A DNA stretch of 64,000 nt from Candidatus Acetothermia bacterium (GTDB taxonomy: Bacteria; Bipolaricaulota; Bipolaricaulia; Bipolaricaulales; Bipolaricaulaceae): positions 1 through 64,000 of the forward strand of contig PWTL01000071.1 of the NCBI GenBank assembly GCA_003562845.1, in the 5' to 3' direction. Each line of letters begins with the position of its first letter. Position 1 is the first letter of the stretch. The notes beneath the pieces were generated by a model that was not told the origin of the DNA, searched no databases, and saw only the letters and a list, made by a program, of their open reading frames with translations. Position numbers and translations under genes: made by a program. This document shows positions 38,191 through 56,877 of this stretch, one piece after another.

Positions 38191-40035
38191 TCACCGGCAC
38201 CCCCGCTGTGCCAGCTCTTCCAGCCCGGCAGAGCGCAGCCGCTCGTCTGTGGGACCGCACTCGTCCCAACCCCGCAGCCTGTAATACTCCTCCCGCTCCC
38301 GGCGGAACGCCTCGCGGTCGATGGGGCGTGATGCGGAAGCGCCTCTGGGCAGGGGATCATGCAGGCGATCCGGCAGCCGGTCGTGCTCAGACCGGTAGCC
38401 ACAAAGGCCCGAGTACAGCCGCAAAAGGTCGAAGTTGCGCCCGCCGATGTCCAACATCCCTTGGGCATCGATGCTCTCTCCGGTGGCCGCTGCCAACAGC
38501 TCCCGCAGCTCAGGGAAGTTGTACCTTGGACCAGTCATGGAAGTGGTGAACACGCACATAACTAGAGAATTATTGAACGAGCGCAGGTTCTCGTAGAGGA
38601 CGGCGATCGACGCCTTGCCCTCCAGCTGGAAGCGGTCCACCGCGTCCTTCACGCCCAATTCGGGCGTGGGGGAGTCCTGCTCCAGCATGGTGTCGTGCAT
38701 ACCCTCGAGGTGGGTGGCCCCGCGGGGGCTGATGGCGTAGGAGAGGCCGAGGCCCACCTTCCCTCGCGGCTCGTGCATGGGGAGCTCGACTCCCTTGACC
38801 GTCATCACGAAGTTCGCGCCGACTGAACGAGCCCAGCTGTCCAGGCCGCCGGCGATGGCGTCCCCTAGGCCTTCTCGTTCCCCTATCTTGCGCACCCAGG
38901 TGACCATGGCCTGCGGGTCTCCCCAGGGCACCTCCTCGCTGATGAGCTTGCGCTCGGATGCCTCCATGAGGGTAGCCACCGCCACGCCTGCGGAGATCGT
39001 GTCCAGGCCGTAGGCGTTGCAGAGCTGGTTGCCCAAGGCTATGGCCGACAGGTCGGAGACCCCGCACAACGACCCCAGAGCGCCCACGGTCTCGTACTCC
39101 GGCCCGCCGTACAGCGGGTGCACCTCCTGTCCCGCGAAGCTCGTTTTCACCGCCCTCTTGCAGCGGATGGGGCAGCCGGTACACGTCTCGCGCTCTGTGA
39201 GGATGGTATCGGCCATGCGCTCTCCGCTGATGGCATCAGCTTCGTCGAACACGCCTTGCTGGAAGTTTTGCGTGGGGAGGACGCCTGTCTCGCACAGTCC
39301 CAGCACTCCGCCGGCGGTGCCATAGCGTCCTAGTCTCTGTGCTCCCTTGCTCTCGGCGAGGGCGCGGCCGAACGCAGCTCGCAGGCGGGCGAACGCTTCC
39401 CTGTCCGCCAACGGTTTGTCCTCGTGCCCCTTCACGGCCACGGCCTTCAACCTCTTTGCTCCCATGACCGCCCCCAGGCCGGGCCTTCCCGCCGAACGGT
39501 TCACATCGTGCATAACGCAGGCCATCTGCACCTGTCGCTCCCCTGCCGGGCCGATGCACGCCACGCGTGTCCCCGGGTGAAGATCCTTCAACATCCGATC
39601 TGTGTCCAAAGTCTGACTTCCCCACAGTTTTCCCGCCGGCTTGAGTTCAGCCTTGCCCTCGCTGAGGAGGAGGTACACCGGCTTGGCCGCGCGGCCACGG
39701 ATGATAATTCCGTCGTAACCGGAGCGCCCCAGCTCGTGTCCCAAGTACCCTCCCACGTAGGAGCACGCTATGGAGCCGGTCTTAGGGGACACTGCCATCA
39801 ACACGTGCCGCCCCGCCCCGGCAAGGCCCGTCCCTTGAAAGGGTCCGCTGGCGAACACCAGCGCGTTTTCCGGGGCGAAGGCATCTGTCCCGGGAGGGAC
39901 CAACTCCAACAACAGCCGAGCGGCGATCCCTCTCCCGCCGAGATGCAAACGGTACCAGTTCTCCGGTATCTCCCGGTCTGTGAACTCTGCATTCGTGAGG
40001 TCAACATCCAAGTACCTGCCGAAAGTCCCTCGCAT
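38191..40035 (-). CDS. aor: Tungsten-containing aldehyde:ferredoxin oxidoreductase family protein
   Basis: MRGTFGRYLDVDLTNAEFTDREIPENWYRLHLGGRGIAARLLLEL, SGPFQGTGLAGAGRHV, CTGCPIRCKRAV, AISPRGATHLEG. Confidence 0.94.
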   Translation of the reverse strand: MRGTFGRYLDVDLTNAEFTDREIPENWYRLHLGGRGIAARLLLELVPPGTDAFAPENALVFASGPFQGTGLAGAGRHVLMAVSPKTGSIACSYVGGYLGHELGRSGYDGIIIRGRAAKPVYLLLSEGKAELKPAGKLWGSQTLDTDRMLKDLHPGTRVACIGPAGERQVQMACVMHDVNRSAGRPGLGAVMGAKRLKAVAVKGHEDKPLADREAFARLRAAFGRALAESKGAQRLGRYGTAGGVLGLCETGVLPTQNFQQGVFDEADAISGERMADTILTERETCTGCPIRCKRAVKTSFAGQEVHPLYGGPEYETVGALGSLCGVSDLSAIALGNQLCNAYGLDTISAGVAVATLMEASERKLISEEVPWGDPQAMVTWVRKIGEREGLGDAIAGGLDSWARSVGANFVMTVKGVELPMHEPRGKVGLGLSYAISPRGATHLEGMHDTMLEQDSPTPELGVKDAVDRFQLEGKASIAVLYENLRSFNNSLVMCVFTTSMTGPRYNFPELRELLAAATGESIDAQGMLDIGGRNFDLLRLYSGLCGYRSEHDRLPDRLHDPLPRGASASRPIDREAFRREREEYYRLRGWDECGPTDERLRSAGLEELAQRGCR

Positions 40036-40154
40036 ACCATATCCCCCTTTCACCTGTCCATTCTACTACACTGGCTGTGATGCCCCAGAGGAGGCGGTGG
40101 CATGCGGTACCATGGACTCATGTTCGATTTCTTCCGGTGGCGGACGAGGGCGCT

Positions 40155-48568: not shown

Positions 48569-50527
48569 GTGGGCAAGGGTGTGAAGTGGGTGGAGCCTGA
48601 TCCGAAGCGTTCAAACTGGTATTGGCCAACCGACGAGGCCAAGCAGCGTGCCTGGGTGTCCGACCCCGAGGTGTACAAGAGGGCGGAGGAGGACCCACAA
48701 GGCTTTTGGGCCGAACGAGCGGACGAACTGCACTGGTTCAAAAAATGGGACAAGGTTTACGAAGAAGCTCCTTATGAGTTCAAGTGGTTCAGCGGAGGCA
48801 AGCTTAACCTATCGTACAACTCCCTGGATCGTCATGTGGACGCCGGCCATGGAGACCGAGTAGCTCTGATCTGGGAGCCGGAGCCCACCGACCAGCCCGG
48901 TCGTGTGTTGACGTACAGGGAGCTGCTTGCGGAAGTGGCCCGCCTGGCAAACGCTCTCAAGGAGATGGGGGTGCAGAAGGGAGATCGGGTGGGAATATAC
49001 CTACCCATGATTCCCGAGGCAGTGATCGCCATGCAGGCTGTAGTGCGCATTGGTGCGGTGCATTCAGTGGTCTTCTCCGCCTTCTCAGCAGAAGCACTGC
49101 GTGACCGGATGCTTGACTGTGGGGCCAGGGTATTGATCACCGCTGACGGCTACTATCGCCGCGGGAAGCCCATTGCCTTGAAGCCGAATGCTGACCAAGC
49201 GCTGGCCGGCACTCAAGTGGAAAAGGTGATCGTGGTCAACCGCTCGGGGAGCGACGTGCCGATGTCCACGGGGCGGGACGTCTGGTACCACGAGCTGGTA
49301 ACGGACCAGCCTGAAGAGTGTCCGGCGGAGGAGATGGAGGCGGAGGATCTTGCCTTCATCCTGTACACATCCGGCACCACGGGTAAACCCAAGGGGGTTA
49401 TGCACACCACCGGCGGTTACGCTGTGCAGGCCTACACAACGTGCAAGTGGGATTTCAACCTCCACGAGGACGACACTCACTGGTGCACGGCTGACGTGGG
49501 GTGGATCACCGGGCACACGTACATCAACTACGGTCCCCTGATGAACGGGGTGGCGACGGTGGTGTACGAGGGGACCCCCGATCACCCCGACTATGGTCGC
49601 ATGTGGCAGGTCATCGAAAAGCACAAAGTGACGGTGTACTACACTGCTCCTACGGCGATTCGCATGCACGTCAAGTGGGGCGAGGAGTGGCCCGCCAAGT
49701 ACGACCTGTCCACGCTGCGTATCCTGGGAACGGTGGGCGAGCCCATCAACGAAGAGGCGTGGATGTGGTACTTCAGGAACATTGGCGGGGAGCGCTGTCC
49801 CATTGTGGACACGTGGTGGCAGACGGAGACGGGCGCGACTTGCATTCAGGCGCTTCCGGGGATGGGGCCGTTCGTTCCCACCGTTGCCGGCAGGCCGTTC
49901 CCCGGAATCAGGGCGGCGATTCTCGACGCCGGGGGACAGGAGCTCCCCGCGGGCGACGGAGGGTATCTGGTCCTCAAACCACCGTTCCCGCCAGCCCTTT
50001 TGCGTGGCCTGTACGGGGACCCCGAGAAGTACAAGGGGACATACTTCTCCGAGTACGGCCCGGGTTTCTACTTCACTCGAGATGGGGCGCGCATCGACGA
50101 AATGGGGAACGTGCGCATTACCGGTCGGGTGGACGATGTGATGAACGTGGCCGGCCATCGCTTGGCCACCGCCGAGGTGGAGGACGCACTGACGCAGCAT
50201 CCGTTGGTGAGTGAGGTGGCCGTCGTTTCTCGCCCCGACGAAGTCAAAGGAGAGGTACCCATCGCGTTTTTGCTCCTGAAAAAGGGAGCGCAGGCTTCTG
50301 ACGGGTTGAAGCGCGAGTTGGTGAAGACGGTGGACAAGCAAATCGGCCCCACGGCACGTCCTGCGGAGATCTACTTCGTGGAGGACGTTCCCAAGACGCG
50401 CTCGGGAAAGATCATGCGCCGGGTGCTCAAGTCCCTGGTCCGTGGTGAGCCGCTGGGGGACGTGGCCACGCTACGTAATCCTGACTCTGTAGAGGACCTG
50501 AAACGAGCTGTGGGCTACAAGAGCTGA
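48569..50527 (+). CDS. acs: Acetyl-CoA synthetase, AMP-forming
   Basis: ILYTSGTTGKPKGVMHTTGGY, DTWWQTETGATCI, RITGRVDDVMNVAGHRLATAEVE, PKTRSGKIMRR; AAAGGAGG RBS upstream of GTG 48569. Confidence 0.93.
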   Translation: MGKGVKWVEPDPKRSNWYWPTDEAKQRAWVSDPEVYKRAEEDPQGFWAERADELHWFKKWDKVYEEAPYEFKWFSGGKLNLSYNSLDRHVDAGHGDRVALIWEPEPTDQPGRVLTYRELLAEVARLANALKEMGVQKGDRVGIYLPMIPEAVIAMQAVVRIGAVHSVVFSAFSAEALRDRMLDCGARVLITADGYYRRGKPIALKPNADQALAGTQVEKVIVVNRSGSDVPMSTGRDVWYHELVTDQPEECPAEEMEAEDLAFILYTSGTTGKPKGVMHTTGGYAVQAYTTCKWDFNLHEDDTHWCTADVGWITGHTYINYGPLMNGVATVVYEGTPDHPDYGRMWQVIEKHKVTVYYTAPTAIRMHVKWGEEWPAKYDLSTLRILGTVGEPINEEAWMWYFRNIGGERCPIVDTWWQTETGATCIQALPGMGPFVPTVAGRPFPGIRAAILDAGGQELPAGDGGYLVLKPPFPPALLRGLYGDPEKYKGTYFSEYGPGFYFTRDGARIDEMGNVRITGRVDDVMNVAGHRLATAEVEDALTQHPLVSEVAVVSRPDEVKGEVPIAFLLLKKGAQASDGLKRELVKTVDKQIGPTARPAEIYFVEDVPKTRSGKIMRRVLKSLVRGEPLGDVATLRNPDSVEDLKRAVGYKS

Positions 50528-50614: not shown

Positions 50615-51916
50615 ATGGGGGAGCTAAAGGTGTTTGGCCTTTCTGTGGAGAGGGGACGCTGGCTGTACGTGGCGCTGGGGGCGCTTATCAACATGTGCTT
50701 GGGGGCGGTGTACGCTTTCAGCGTGTTCCGCAGGCCCTTGGAGGAGATGTGGGGCATCGGCGCCACGCACAGCGGCTTGCCGTTCATGGTGTTTCTAGGA
50801 GTGTTCAGTGTGGGGATGGTTGTCGCCGGCCGGGGGTTGGACCGCTGGGGCCCGAAGAAGACAGGCCTCGTGGGAGGGGTTCTGGTCGGCGCGGGGTGGC
50901 TTCTGGCCGGATTGTCGCCGAGCATCGGCGTGCTCACGCTGTTGTACGGAGTGCTGGCGGGGGCAGGGGTGGGGGTGCTGTACGGCTGTCCCATTGCCGT
51001 GTCTGCGAAGTGGTTCCCGGACAAGAAGGGCCTGGCCGTGGGGCTAACCGTAATGGGTTTCGGGTTGTCGGCGTTGGTGATGGCTCCTCTTCTCGAGCTG
51101 AGCATTCGGGCCCTGGGTCCCCTGGCGACGTTTTCCGTCTTCGGCGGAGGATTCTTGGCGTTGCTTGTTCTTCTTTCCCTTCCAATGCGCGTGCCTCCTG
51201 CGGGCTGGTCTGCTCCGGGCAGAGAGGCCGGCGCTGGTCGGGAGATGGGGGCGCCGGTGGACTTGGAGACGGCAGCCATGCTCCGGAGCAGCGCTTTCTA
51301 CGGGTTGTGGGGCTCTTTTACGGTGGGCTGCCTGGCCGGTCTCATGGCCATCGGTATCGCGGCGCCCTATGGGCAAGAGGTGGCACGCCTGGCACCAGGA
51401 ACTGCAGCGGTGGCCGTGTCAGTGTTTGCCCTGTTCAACGCAGCCGGACGGCCGCTGTTTGGATGGCTCACGGACCTACTCACTCCGAAGAAGACAGCGG
51501 TACTGTCCTTCTCCTCTATTATCGTTGCGTCGACTGTGCTCGCGATGTGGGGAGAGGGGAACCCGACGGTGTACTTTGTCGGCTTTTCCCTGTTGTGGCT
51601 GAACCTCGGCGGTTGGCTGGCCATCGCTCCCACAGCCACGGCGACGTTCTTTGGCACGAAGTACTACGGGAGCAACTACGGTTTGGTGTACACGGGATAC
51701 GGGCTCGGGGCCATCCTGGGGATGGTACTCTCGGGGTTGCTCCGGGACTTGACGGGGAGCTATGTGTTGGTGTTCCCTCCGGTGATCGGGATGGCAGTGG
51801 GGGGCCTACTGCTGGCGCTGTTTCTGCTCAACCCTGTGACCGGTGAACCGAGGGCGATTGTGCCGCGACGTTCTTCCAGGGGAGCCTCCGGCGCTCGGCG
51901 AAAAGGGAAACGCTAG
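50615..51916 (+). CDS. OFA (oxalate/formate antiporter)-family MFS transporter
   Basis: RWLYVALGALINMCLGAVYAFSVFRRPLEEMWG, GRGLDRWGPKK, AVSAKWFPDKKGLAVGLTVMGFGLSAL, RPLFGWLTDLLTPKK. Confidence 0.9.
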   Translation: MGELKVFGLSVERGRWLYVALGALINMCLGAVYAFSVFRRPLEEMWGIGATHSGLPFMVFLGVFSVGMVVAGRGLDRWGPKKTGLVGGVLVGAGWLLAGLSPSIGVLTLLYGVLAGAGVGVLYGCPIAVSAKWFPDKKGLAVGLTVMGFGLSALVMAPLLELSIRALGPLATFSVFGGGFLALLVLLSLPMRVPPAGWSAPGREAGAGREMGAPVDLETAAMLRSSAFYGLWGSFTVGCLAGLMAIGIAAPYGQEVARLAPGTAAVAVSVFALFNAAGRPLFGWLTDLLTPKKTAVLSFSSIIVASTVLAMWGEGNPTVYFVGFSLLWLNLGGWLAIAPTATATFFGTKYYGSNYGLVYTGYGLGAILGMVLSGLLRDLTGSYVLVFPPVIGMAVGGLLLALFLLNPVTGEPRAIVPRRSSRGASGARRKGKR

Positions 51917-54177
51917 CGGAGCGGCTTCTCCGCGAACACCACTCCGTCCTCGACGACAATGCGGACCTCAAACCCGCGTCGTTGGAGAAGGGAGATCATG
52001 CGCACGTTATCTGGCGTGAGCTCACAGGTGATGCGCCGGGCCCCGAGTTCGGTGGCGGTGTCCACCATGTGGTCGGTGAGGAGGCTGCCCAGCCCTCTGC
52101 CCTGCCACGAATCAGCGACGAACACAGCGAACTCAGCGAGGTCACAGTCAGGGTCGAGGAACAGCTCTCCCTCTCCGGCTAGGCTCGGCCCTCTCTCCCC
52201 TTTCACCTCAGCCACCATGACGAGTTCGCGGCGGTAGTCAATGCAGCAGTGGCGGCGGCCCATGCGCCTGGAGGGTTCATGATGGACGGAGTGGTACCGC
52301 AGCCGCAGCGAGTCCGGGGAAGAGGAAGTGAGCATCCGCCGCCACAGGGGCTCGTCGTCGGGGCGAATGGGGCGGAGCGTGGCGCAGGTCCCGTCTCTTA
52401 GGCGAATGCTCTGTACACTTCCGTCCGGGTACGGACAAAGGGAAAGGTGTGCCTGCGAGCACGTCGGGTCGCTCCGGCCACGGGCTCCCAGGGCAGTTGC
52501 CTCCCCGTCGACGACGAAGACAGGACCGAGGTCCAATTCCACCAGCTGGGGCAGCTTGACAGCCAGTCGGGAGAGCTGCAGGAGGAGGAGCACCAACCTG
52601 CGGGAAACGGCCGGCGCCAGCCTGGGGAAGAGCTCACTGAGCATGGACCGGGCCAACGGCTCGGTCAGGGGGGGCAGACCGACTGCGGGATGCTCCCCGA
52701 GTTCGTCCGGAGAGGAAGCGAGCACTACCGACCCGAACACGGGGTGACGGCGCAGGCGAACGAGCAGTGACGGGGGATTGTGGCCCGCTGCTGCGGGGTC
52801 CACACGAACTCCCCAGCGGGCCAAGAGCGCGCGGAGCTCTTCCTTTGGTATCTCTCCAGCGGTAAGGGGGAGAGAGCCTCCTTCTGTGGGCCCGGCGGGA
52901 AGAGAGCCCCACGGCTGGTGGAGGAGGTCCAGGTTGCGCGTACATTCGGCCAGGCATCTCAGCGCGTCGGCAGCGTCGGCGAGAAGAGTGTACACGGCAA
53001 CTCCCCCCGTACGGAGCGCTTGTGCGGTCCGTTGATCGGAGGTCACCGCTACGAGTGGTTTTCCGCTGTTTGTGGCTGCTGCGGCCAGTCTGTTAGCTAC
53101 CTGGACGTTCGTCCCACTGGGCAGGTTGGCGAGCAGCATGTGGACAGCGGAATCGAAGAGCAGCGCCTCCGCGGCGGACAGAAGAGCATCTGATTCCACC
53201 TGTGGGGGGAGAGTGATTCGTGCGTTCTCTTCACGACAGCCTCCCTGGCGAAGGAGGGCACGAGTGGCAGGAGCCAGTTCGCGTGTCTTCGTAGCGCAAT
53301 CCTCCAGAACTTCTTCTGTTCCTACCTCGGTGAGCACTGCCATCTTGTGCCCTAGCGGAGGGTAGTCTGCTCGGGCCAGGAGTTCCACCAGGTTGATCAG
53401 GTCGTGGCCCCGGCGTACCGGCACTCCACCGGCACGGCGCAGGGCCTCGGCGAACACCTGCCATTCCCAGTCACAATCGCACCTACAGGCGACAACGGGT
53501 CTGTCCCGGGAGAAGGACCACACAGCGGGCAGAAGCTTGTGTGGGGTGGGCAGTCGGTCCACGTCCAGCAGGAGAGTCTGTACGCGGCCGCGCCCGTGCA
53601 GGTAGTCCGTCACATCGGCCAGGTCGACGTCGACCTGGTCGCCGAGAGAGAGGAGGTGGCTTATTCCGAGGTCTGCGCATTCGGCCCGGGCGGTGAGCTC
53701 GGTCCATAGGGGGGAAGAGCTCGATACCAGGGCCAGTCCTCCGTGGGCGGGCATGCCCGGCATGACGCTTGCGTTGAGCTGTAGCGCAGGAACCAGCAAC
53801 CCCAGGGATCCCGGACCGATTATACGAGTGTCGGGGTAGTTGTCGTTTAGGGACTGTAAAACTCTGTGCGGCGCGTCCTGCGTCATTATGAGGACGCCGG
53901 GTAGCCCCTCCTCAGCACAGGATCGGACCAATCCCGCGACCTCTGACTCGGGGGCGTCTACCAAGGCCAGGTCTACTTCGACGGGAAGTTCCCTCACTCG
54001 GCGCATTGCGGGCAGGGGTCTGTATTGGGCAAGGGCTTCGCCTACAAGGAAAACGTCGCCTCTGTAGTTGTGCTGGAGAAGGTTTCGTAGCACCAGACGG
54101 GCGAGTTCGCCGGAGCCTTCGGAGACGACGGCCAGCCGTCTGGGCCGCAGCGCGCGCTCGAGGTTACGGATGCCCAC
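51913..54177 (-). CDS. Degenerate NDP-forming acyl-CoA ligase scaffold with C-terminal GNAT acetyltransferase
   Basis: MGIRNLERALRPRRLAVVSEGSG...; same layout as the 54184-56877 paralog, no SHTGALAG-type motif; GNAT end FAVFVADSWQGRGLGSLLTDHMVDTA retained. Confidence 0.85.
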   Translation of the reverse strand: MGIRNLERALRPRRLAVVSEGSGELARLVLRNLLQHNYRGDVFLVGEALAQYRPLPAMRRVRELPVEVDLALVDAPESEVAGLVRSCAEEGLPGVLIMTQDAPHRVLQSLNDNYPDTRIIGPGSLGLLVPALQLNASVMPGMPAHGGLALVSSSSPLWTELTARAECADLGISHLLSLGDQVDVDLADVTDYLHGRGRVQTLLLDVDRLPTPHKLLPAVWSFSRDRPVVACRCDCDWEWQVFAEALRRAGGVPVRRGHDLINLVELLARADYPPLGHKMAVLTEVGTEEVLEDCATKTRELAPATRALLRQGGCREENARITLPPQVESDALLSAAEALLFDSAVHMLLANLPSGTNVQVANRLAAAATNSGKPLVAVTSDQRTAQALRTGGVAVYTLLADAADALRCLAECTRNLDLLHQPWGSLPAGPTEGGSLPLTAGEIPKEELRALLARWGVRVDPAAAGHNPPSLLVRLRRHPVFGSVVLASSPDELGEHPAVGLPPLTEPLARSMLSELFPRLAPAVSRRLVLLLLQLSRLAVKLPQLVELDLGPVFVVDGEATALGARGRSDPTCSQAHLSLCPYPDGSVQSIRLRDGTCATLRPIRPDDEPLWRRMLTSSSPDSLRLRYHSVHHEPSRRMGRRHCCIDYRRELVMVAEVKGERGPSLAGEGELFLDPDCDLAEFAVFVADSWQGRGLGSLLTDHMVDTATELGARRITCELTPDNVRMISLLQRRGFEVRIVVEDGVVFAEKPLR

Positions 54178-54183
54178 TGTCGA

Positions 54184-56877
54184 CTAGGAGCCCTCCAGGT
54201 CTTTGTGAGCCAGGACGACTCCCTCCTCAGAGCGGTGTTCCAGGCGGAAGCCCCGGCTCTCAAAGATGGCCAGCATGCGACGGTTGTCGGGAGTGGTCTC
54301 TGCTGTCACGTGGGACACCCCCCACCCAGCGGCGATCTCCAGGCAGTAGTCCGTGAGCTGATTACCCAGCCCCTGCCCTTGCCAAGGATCCGCCACGAAC
54401 ACCGCGTATTCTGCAGTACTGGGATCTGGACCGGCGACCAGCCTCCCCACGCCGGCGATCTTCCGTTCACCCTCTTCTTCCAGCTCGGCGACGATGGCCA
54501 TCTCGCGATCGTAGTCGATGAAGCAGTACCGGGTGGCCATCTCATGGGTGCTCTCCTTGAAGATGTACTGAAACCGAAAACGGATCGACTCGCGCGATGA
54601 AACACGCAGCATTTCATGCCACAGCGGCTCATCCTCCGGGCGGATCGGGCGCAGAGTGACAGTCTTACCGTCTGTCCCTGTCACCTTGCGCACGTACTCG
54701 TCCGGGTAGGGGCGGATGGCCAGGTGTTCGTACGGCCTCACGTCGCGGCTGAGTCTCTCCGGATCGACTATTAGCCGCGCATCCAGGGCCACAGCTTCGT
54801 GGGGAGTGACCAGCAGCGGGTTTATGTCCAGTTCGGCGATCGCGGGGTGTTCGGCCACGAGGTAGGAGAAGCGCATCAACACCTGGAGGAGCTTGTCCAG
54901 GTCTATTGGCGGTCGGCCCCGATAGCCTGTGAGCAGGGGCCAAGCATTCAATGACTCCAACAACCTTCGGGCGAGCCGCTCGTTCAGGGGGGGCAGTCCC
55001 AGTGCGCGATCGCGGAACACCTCGGCCGCGGTTCCCCCTGTGCCGACCATGATCACCGCGCCGAAAGCTGGGTCGTGCTTTGCGCCTAAGATGAGCTCGA
55101 AGCCGTGTTTGGCGTTTACCATCCGTTGAACGGTGACCCCCAAAACTTCGGCCTCCGGCCGCTGTTCTCGAGCCGCATCCACTATGCGTTCGTAAGCCCG
55201 GCGAACCTCTGGCTCGTCGTGCAGATCGAGCACTACTCCCCCCACGTCTGTCTTATGAGTTATGTCTGGAGATAACACCTTGAGCACCACCGGATAACCT
55301 AGCTCATGTGCGACGGCCACGGCCTCGTCCGCGCTGTGAGTTTCGTGGACTTCGGTCACGGGGATGCCGTATGCCTCAAGGAGATCTTTGGAGGCTTGTT
55401 CGCTCAGTGTAAGGGAGTCAGCAGAGGTTAGGCTGGCGAACTTGTCCTTGATCGTGTCCCGGTCCATGGACAGCTGCACGGGGATCTCCCGAGGGGTTTC
55501 GTAGAGGACTTCCAGATTGCGCGCGTAGTGTACCAGGTGCATGAACGCCCGCACGGCCTGTTCGGGAGTAGTGTAGGCGGGGACCCCGTGTTGAGCCAGA
55601 GTGCGCAGTCCCTGCTGAACGGTGCGACCGCCCATCCATGCGGCGAGAATCGGTTTGGAGGACTTCTCGGCGAGGTTGGCCAGCGACTCGGCGGTGACTG
55701 AGGGGTCAGTCATGGCCTGCGGAGTGAGGATGACCAAGGCGGCATCCACCTCCGGATCGGAGAGAACGATCTCAGTGGCCTCGACGAACCTGTCCGGTCC
55801 GGCGTCTCCGAGCACGTCCACTGGATTGCCCCGGGACCAGAACGCCGGGAGAGCCTTGTTGAGTCTCTCCAGCGTATCATCTGACAGTGTGGCCAGAGCG
55901 CCCTCCCGCGCGAGCAAAGCATCGGTGGCCATCACCCCCGGCCCGCCCGCGTTGGTCACTATGGCCAGACGGGAACCCGTTGGGGCCCGGGTTCTCGCCA
56001 CCAGTTCGGCGCAATCGAACACGTCATCTATCTCGGCAACGCGCACGATGCCGGCGCGTTGCAGCGCGGCGTCGTACACCGCGTCCTCTCCGGCCAGGGC
56101 GCCGGTGTGTGACGCTGCAGCCTGAGCGGACTCGGCGAAGCGGCCCGATTTGTACGCTACTACCGGCTTGTGCTTGGAGAAAGCCCGGGCTGCGGACATG
56201 AACTCGCGGGACTCTGTGATTGATTCCATGTACAGAATCATGGAGCGGGTATGAGGATCCTCGCCGAAGTAGTCGATGAGATCGCCGAAGTCTACGTCCA
56301 GCATGTTCCCAATGGACACGAAGAACGAGAACCCGATGTTGCGCTCGAGCGCCCAGTCCAGCACCGAGGTACACAGTGCTCCCGACTGAGAGATGAACGC
56401 CACATGTCCTGCCTGGGGCATTGCTCCGGCGAAACTCGCGTTGAGCCGCAGCGAAGGGACGATGACGCCGAGGCAGTTGGGCCCGATTATGCGAGTTCCC
56501 GGGAAGGCGGCCGCTTCCTCGCTCACTCTGTCCTCGAGATCACGTCCCTCTTCCCCCGTTTCCTTGAAGCCTGCAGAGTTGATGACAATACCCTTAATGC
56601 CGGCAGTGCCGCACTCTCTGACCAGTCCCGGTACCGTGTGCGCGGGGGTGCAAATCACTGCGAGATCAGGAATGCTGGGCAGAGCGGTCACAGTGGGATA
56701 GGCGTGAATTCCCTGGACAGACTCCCGCTTGGGGTTCACGGGGTAGACTACACCGGAATAACCTGAGCCGACGAGGTTGCGAAAGACTGTGTACCCGACG
56801 CTGGACCGGTTACCGCTGGCCCCGATTACCGCCACGCGCTTAGGCTTGAAAATCTTGTCCAGATTGCGGATGCCCAC
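54184..56877 (-). CDS. NDP-forming acyl-CoA ligase (CoA-binding + ATP-grasp) fused to GNAT acetyltransferase (Pat/YfiQ-like architecture)
   Basis: MGIRNLDKIFKPKRVAVIGASGNRSSVGYTVFRNL; AASHTGALAGEDAVYDAAL; YPVVLKVLSPDITHKTDVGGVVLDL; ELDINPLLV; YAVFVADPWQGQGLGNQLTDYCLEIA. Confidence 0.93.
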   Translation of the reverse strand: MGIRNLDKIFKPKRVAVIGASGNRSSVGYTVFRNLVGSGYSGVVYPVNPKRESVQGIHAYPTVTALPSIPDLAVICTPAHTVPGLVRECGTAGIKGIVINSAGFKETGEEGRDLEDRVSEEAAAFPGTRIIGPNCLGVIVPSLRLNASFAGAMPQAGHVAFISQSGALCTSVLDWALERNIGFSFFVSIGNMLDVDFGDLIDYFGEDPHTRSMILYMESITESREFMSAARAFSKHKPVVAYKSGRFAESAQAAASHTGALAGEDAVYDAALQRAGIVRVAEIDDVFDCAELVARTRAPTGSRLAIVTNAGGPGVMATDALLAREGALATLSDDTLERLNKALPAFWSRGNPVDVLGDAGPDRFVEATEIVLSDPEVDAALVILTPQAMTDPSVTAESLANLAEKSSKPILAAWMGGRTVQQGLRTLAQHGVPAYTTPEQAVRAFMHLVHYARNLEVLYETPREIPVQLSMDRDTIKDKFASLTSADSLTLSEQASKDLLEAYGIPVTEVHETHSADEAVAVAHELGYPVVLKVLSPDITHKTDVGGVVLDLHDEPEVRRAYERIVDAAREQRPEAEVLGVTVQRMVNAKHGFELILGAKHDPAFGAVIMVGTGGTAAEVFRDRALGLPPLNERLARRLLESLNAWPLLTGYRGRPPIDLDKLLQVLMRFSYLVAEHPAIAELDINPLLVTPHEAVALDARLIVDPERLSRDVRPYEHLAIRPYPDEYVRKVTGTDGKTVTLRPIRPEDEPLWHEMLRVSSRESIRFRFQYIFKESTHEMATRYCFIDYDREMAIVAELEEEGERKIAGVGRLVAGPDPSTAEYAVFVADPWQGQGLGNQLTDYCLEIAAGWGVSHVTAETTPDNRRMLAIFESRGFRLEHRSEEGVVLAHKDLEGS

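Follow-up and report, generated by a model that had tools for sequence, protein, structure and literature searches.

How does a protein acetyltransferase come to carry a ligase domain that no longer works? Pat/YfiQ proteins have such an inactive domain, the origin and use of which are debated. The question is raised anew by two adjacent genes, encoding proteins of 897 and 754 amino acids (aa), in a 64,000-nucleotide stretch of a Candidatus Acetothermia bacterium genome (assembly GCA_003562845.1, contig PWTL01000071.1, positions 1 to 64,000; here called the window). The source genome (G000) measures 1.45 Mb and is 85% complete, and the window lies on its contig C30. Among named genomes, its closest relatives are Ca. 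Acetothermia metagenome-assembled genomes (PXEP01000050 and PWTC01000018), members of the phylum for which the name Bipolaricaulota is also used. We read the locus as a duplicated Type I Pat (class I-alpha lysine acetyltransferase [KAT]) pair, in which the 754-aa protein would be a paralogue with a dismantled ligase and a selected GNAT domain, dedicated to lysine acetylation (probability of about 0.68). A duplication with one ligase-competent and one ligase-dead copy is supported by residue checks, by the same lesions in three genomes, by stronger constraint on the GNAT domain, and by a fold match to PatZ.

The gene layout given in the initial annotation was recovered in full. Both open reading frames (ORFs) lie on the minus strand, separated by 6 nt (54178 to 54183), and both proteins start with MGIRNL; their overall identity is 36%. 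The 897-aa protein contains complete CoA_binding, Succ_CoA_lig, Ligase_CoA, ATP-grasp_5, and GNAT domains (Pfam). When aligned with solved ADP-forming synthetases, it has every ligase residue checked (E218, H257, H541, and D684), with H257 in the SHTGALAG loop and H541 in the ATP-grasp motif LKVLSPDITHKTDVGGVVLDL (ITHKTD), as first proposed. Following the formal classification of PMC6456759 and PMC8556138, the phospho-His, second His, catalytic Glu, and Asp of an ADP-forming acyl-CoA synthetase (ACD) are all found, and the presence of H257 sets the protein apart from classical Type I Pats, in which the ligase catalytic His is absent. Because all checked ligase residues and an intact GNAT domain are kept, the protein is predicted to be a bifunctional ligase/acetyltransferase, Pat-like in its GNAT part and ligase-competent.

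The 754-aa protein scores above the Pfam cutoffs for Succ_CoA_lig, CoA_binding_2, ATP-grasp_5, and Acetyltransf_1, the ATP-grasp part being incomplete. A motif table covered the family's Pat-type proteins and two stand-alone ligases of the genome. In the alignment, 15 residues over the phospho-His loop are missing from the 754-aa protein, a deletion spanned by the stretch around CRCDCDWEWQ, and about 76 ATP-grasp residues are gone together with the second catalytic His. A further nine residues are lost from the CoA-binding domain, the CoA loop is two residues shorter (VIGAS to VV--S, with the fold kept in the structure model), and the ligase catalytic Glu is replaced by Asp. The initial annotation had reported both ligase motifs as absent, which holds, but the register of one segment was wrong: LLVRLRRHPVFGSVVLASSP (LLVRLRRHP), placed at the ATP-grasp motif, in fact pairs with ELILGAKHDPAFGAVIM, which lies some 50 residues closer to the C terminus. 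The conclusion is unaffected, the motif segment itself being deleted. Judged by its sequence, the protein cannot work as a ligase, because the phospho-His loop and some 76 ATP-grasp residues have disappeared. With both His deleted and Glu changed to Asp, it lacks the residues that define an ADP-forming synthetase. It does show several features of a Type I Pat, namely an absent ligase catalytic His, a Q/R-x-x-G-x-G/A loop (QGRGLG), and a glutamate (E682) equivalent to E809, the postulated base of PatZ and SePat (PMC8556138; PMC6456759). The acetyl-CoA loop described earlier in its GNAT domain is present in ADSWQGRGLGSLL. The proposed split into a ligase copy and a ligase-dead acyltransferase is supported at the sequence level, except that the intact copy is not just a ligase and also has a complete GNAT domain.

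A structure model of the 754-aa protein was built with AlphaFold2 from eight sequences (predicted local distance difference test [pLDDT], 85; predicted template modeling score [pTM], 0.84). Over the whole chain, its top matches are PatZ structures 9it0 and 9isq (9it0, E value of 1.6e-53 and TM score of 0.81), followed by ADP-forming synthetases and then by the GNAT domains of S. lividans Pat and Rv0998; the GNAT domain itself matches those of PatZ, S. lividans Pat, and Rv0998. E. coli PatZ is the best solved relative of both the 754-aa and the 897-aa protein.

Among 100 genomes of the phylum, three have an orthologue of the 754-aa protein (50 to 51% identity, no stop codons), and 34 have a strong Pat-type match of any kind, intact type included. 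Besides G000, the three comprise G001 and G007 (L049 and L048), which are Ca. Acetothermia metagenome-assembled genomes. One of these belongs to another genus, so that two genera of one family are represented. A single-sequence search found no named relatives; an alignment-based search recovered both Acetothermia orthologues, along with Pat or ligase proteins that are only distantly related. All three eroded copies carry the same deletions with identical boundaries. Between species, the eroded GNAT domain is 66 to 72% identical and the ligase remnant 34 to 61%, its best-kept part being residues 146 to 235 (52 to 61%); the intact copy reaches 71 to 92%, depending on the domain. The pN/pS ratio of the eroded GNAT domain, about 0.27, is indicative only, as synonymous sites are saturated. 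Residues both invariant in and specific to the eroded copies include an LRYHSVHH stretch, C581, C645, and C718. Given the constraint on the GNAT domain, the open frames, and the lack of stops, the gene is being maintained, primarily for this domain.

It is highly improbable that the 754-aa gene is instead a functionless duplicate in decay. Its long branches, lost ligase motifs, and fast-changing remnant would suit such a fate, but the frame is open in three species of two genera despite saturated synonymous change, the GNAT domain is strongly constrained, and both the deletion boundaries and the genomic place are conserved. A pseudogene or an assembly artefact was rejected because gene order, lesions, and open frames agree among three independent assemblies, and a chance open frame was ruled out by the count of stops in the 754 codons (0 seen versus about 18 expected for random sequence of the same composition), together with fully open orthologues in two other genomes.

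The tandem faces a gene for the AMP-forming acetyl-CoA synthetase Acs and one for a major facilitator superfamily (MFS) carrier (Table 1). Both lie on the opposite strand and are oriented toward the tandem, with acs two genes from the 754-aa gene. Acs K598 sits in a C-terminal PKTRSGK (P-KTRS-GK), the motif around the Pat-acetylated lysine (K609 in Salmonella). The order acc-acs-MFS-eroded-intact-rpsI is common to all three genomes with an eroded copy, rpsI being about 2 kb more distant in G007, and each of the three encodes a sirtuin. Elsewhere in the family, intact pat occurs together with acs and an acetate or MFS carrier, and genes reading as fhs and folD stand between them in other genera. 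Elsewhere in the window, a 620-aa ORF (38191 to 40053, minus strand) resembles aldehyde ferredoxin oxidoreductase, as read from its translation only.

Table 1 Features of the tandem, its neighbourhood, and related loci in other genomes
Feature	Position or locus	Strand	Basis or remark
754-aa eroded Pat-type protein, predicted ligase-dead ACD remnant + GNAT	51913..54177	-	GTG start
GNAT domain of 754-aa protein, residues 576-754; Q-x-x-G-x-G loop at 692-697	51916..52452	-	Pfam PF00583
E682 codon, equivalent of PatZ/SePat E809 putative general base	52132..52134	-	Alignment
Junction of ~76 missing ATP-grasp residues incl. second catalytic His, ~residues 469-470	52767..52773	-	Alignment
Junction of missing 15-residue phospho-His loop, residues 231-236	53470..53487	-	Alignment
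897-aa intact ACD + GNAT fusion, predicted bifunctional acetate-CoA ligase/acetyltransferase	54184..56877	-	GTG start; first gene of tandem
GNAT domain of 897-aa protein; E823, QGQGLG at 833-838	54187..54705	-	Pfam and residue checks
Complete ATP-grasp domain of 897-aa protein	54766..55422	-	PF13549, 284.8 bits
H541 codon, second catalytic His on ATP-grasp domain	55255..55257	-	Residue alignment
H257 codon, phospho-His of alpha domain	56107..56109	-	Residue alignment
Acs, AMP-forming acetyl-CoA synthetase, candidate substrate	48617..50527, start approximate	+	NF001208 and TIGR02188 above cutoff
MFS carrier, L-lactate transporter type	50615..51916	+	Score exceeds NCBIfam cutoff
Stand-alone GNAT linked to formate dehydrogenase	L075, L076, L077, L078, L079, L080, L081, L082, L083, L042:7827-8333		
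Hydrolase/transferase-GNAT followed by synthetase	L085:582-4624, L086:991-5090, L088:1307-5328, L089:2644-6868, L090:975-4992		

Type I Pats acetylate and inactivate Acs, and their ligase-like domain serves in oligomerization and in the sensing of acetyl-CoA; K609 of Acs is controlled by Pat (PMC8556138; PMC6456759). The 897-aa protein, as an ADP-forming acyl-CoA synthetase fused to a GNAT domain, would interconvert acetyl-CoA and acetate with ATP and would also acetylate lysines. In its paralogue, stripped of the phospho-His loop and half of the ATP-grasp domain and left with a shortened CoA loop, the remaining scaffold would carry the GNAT domain. Most likely, the 754-aa protein works as a dedicated lysine acetyltransferase, while the 897-aa protein continues to produce or consume acetyl-CoA. 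Its likeliest substrate would be the neighbouring Acs, at K598, or other acetyl-CoA enzymes, and the sirtuin of the genome would remove the acetyl groups. The protein would be less sensitive to acetyl-CoA than PatZ, or dependent on its neighbour for a regulatory domain. A lower sensitivity is probable because the CoA site of the ligase domain is damaged, and sensing by the N-terminal domain may be weaker rather than kept. We infer Acs as the target from the gene neighbourhood and the K598 motif, and we take the loss of acetyl-CoA gating with the same caution. Control of acetate activation is plausible in these bacteria, since acetate production or oxidation through the Wood-Ljungdahl pathway has been proposed for Bipolaricaulota (PMC9992828).

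Several points weigh against a dedicated acetyltransferase acting on Acs. When separated from the N-terminal domain, the GNAT domain of E. coli PatZ has no activity (PMC8556138), so the damaged N-terminal domain might leave the 754-aa protein inactive as well. Acs could already be served by the intact copy through its own GNAT domain, and the GNAT domains of the two proteins are only 42 to 47% identical, so that their substrates may differ. In addition, one genome with an intact copy of this clade (G004, 58% complete) has no eroded copy at that place, which is occupied by an HD-GYP-like gene, as read from its translation.

The 754-aa protein might instead act mainly as a subunit that supports the 897-aa protein without being a ligase itself, joining the same oligomer through its Rossmann/flavodoxin-like part and tuning the ligase or acetyltransferase activity. 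The adjacency of the genes, with a 6-nt gap and the intact copy first, fits this idea, as do the preservation of residues 146 to 235 in the remnant and the oligomerization of PatZ and SePat through their N-terminal domain (PMC8556138). However, the most conserved part is a GNAT domain with full motifs, which would be superfluous in a purely structural partner, and the two genes are separated by about 70 nt in G007; we consider this role unlikely.

Ten genomes of the family have a stand-alone Pat-type GNAT protein of about 165 to 180 aa (one clade, 100/99), encoded directly 3' of a formate dehydrogenase subunit on the same strand. The adjoining 2Fe-2S/molybdopterin subunit, of about 890 aa, is 68 to 87% identical, and in G003 it shares one open frame with the GNAT protein. 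This linkage suggests that formate dehydrogenase is controlled by acetylation. The formate dehydrogenases of G000 (C36:2834-5515, L110) and G007 (C47, L109) have no neighbouring GNAT gene, whereas the nine remaining family genomes with the enzyme, within the set searched, all have the stand-alone GNAT gene, adjacent in each except G011. The presence of the eroded copy where the adjacent GNAT gene is absent could be chance.

The 754-aa protein could, as a counterpart of these fdhA-linked GNAT proteins of related genera, acetylate a target other than Acs, such as a small molecule or formate dehydrogenase. The GNAT tree places the eroded copies with the fdhA-linked proteins, though with weak support (74/51), and two genomes whose fdhA has no adjacent GNAT gene contain the eroded copy instead. 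The grouping is not significant, however, fdhA of this type was not found in G001 although the eroded copy is present, and each of the three genomes has the gene in its acs locus; we consider a non-Acs target quite unlikely. Very doubtful, too, is a two-protein acetate switch, in which the 897-aa protein would make acetate and ATP while the 754-aa protein, ungated by acetyl-CoA and equipped with the clade-specific C581, C645, and C718, would set Acs or formate dehydrogenase in response to another signal, perhaps redox.

The eroded copies are monophyletic (100/100 in the full-length tree and 99/99 in the GNAT tree) and sit on long branches. Neither the trees nor approximately unbiased (AU) tests distinguish a recent origin from an old one: grouping the eroded copies with the intact ones of their own clade (GNAT, P = 0.317) is not rejected, nor is placing them outside every intact copy of the family (full length, P = 0.312). 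The duplication is older, at the least, than the divergence of the two genera. In a different family within the phylum (f5; G050 C34, L124:2825-5485; G056 C80, L073:226-2886), a second Pat paralogue is likewise predicted to be ligase-dead: the His loop of the ATP-grasp domain is lost, SHTGSLAGED has become SHIGLSPRRN, and the GNAT motifs are kept. These losses occurred independently in that family. The presumed ancestral state, a ligase-competent ACD-GNAT fusion, and a putative ligase-dead derivative thus coexist in one genome. Together with the independent f5 copy, this makes it testable which of the old ligase parts a Pat needs for acetyltransferase activity, as well as whether the intact ACD-GNAT fusion truly has both activities.

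Compared with known systems, the 754-aa protein resembles E. coli PatZ/YfiQ and S. enterica Pat in having a ligase part without the phospho-His and in keeping the GNAT glutamate and the Q-x-x-G-x-G loop, and PatZ is the best structural match of its model. PatZ, in contrast, keeps a full ATP-grasp domain and an HKS loop, whereas the 754-aa protein is devoid of that half-domain, has a shortened CoA loop, and is encoded beside a ligase-competent paralogue. Unlike the 897-aa protein, E. coli PatZ has no SHTGA loop at the corresponding place. In the 897-aa protein, E218, H257, H541, and D684 align with the equivalent residues of ADP-forming ACDs (Ca. Korarchaeum ACD1, 4xyl; P. horikoshii, 2csu/1wr2), but the protein differs from them by the GNAT domain fused to its C terminus and by its 754-aa paralogue, from which the ligase residues have been lost. 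A related GNAT domain, acting on Acs in known cases (PMC8556138), is found in Type III KATs, for example Rv0998 (mycobacterial Pat), and in single-domain Type IV KATs; their regulatory domain is different or absent, whereas in the 754-aa protein an eroded ligase scaffold takes its place. Elsewhere in the class, in other families, an acetyl-CoA hydrolase/transferase-like protein with a C-terminal Pat-type GNAT domain is followed directly by an ADP-forming synthetase without GNAT, so that both activities are distributed over the proteins in another way. The tandem described here is real and conserved; it represents a variant inside the Pat family and does not amount to a system of a new kind.
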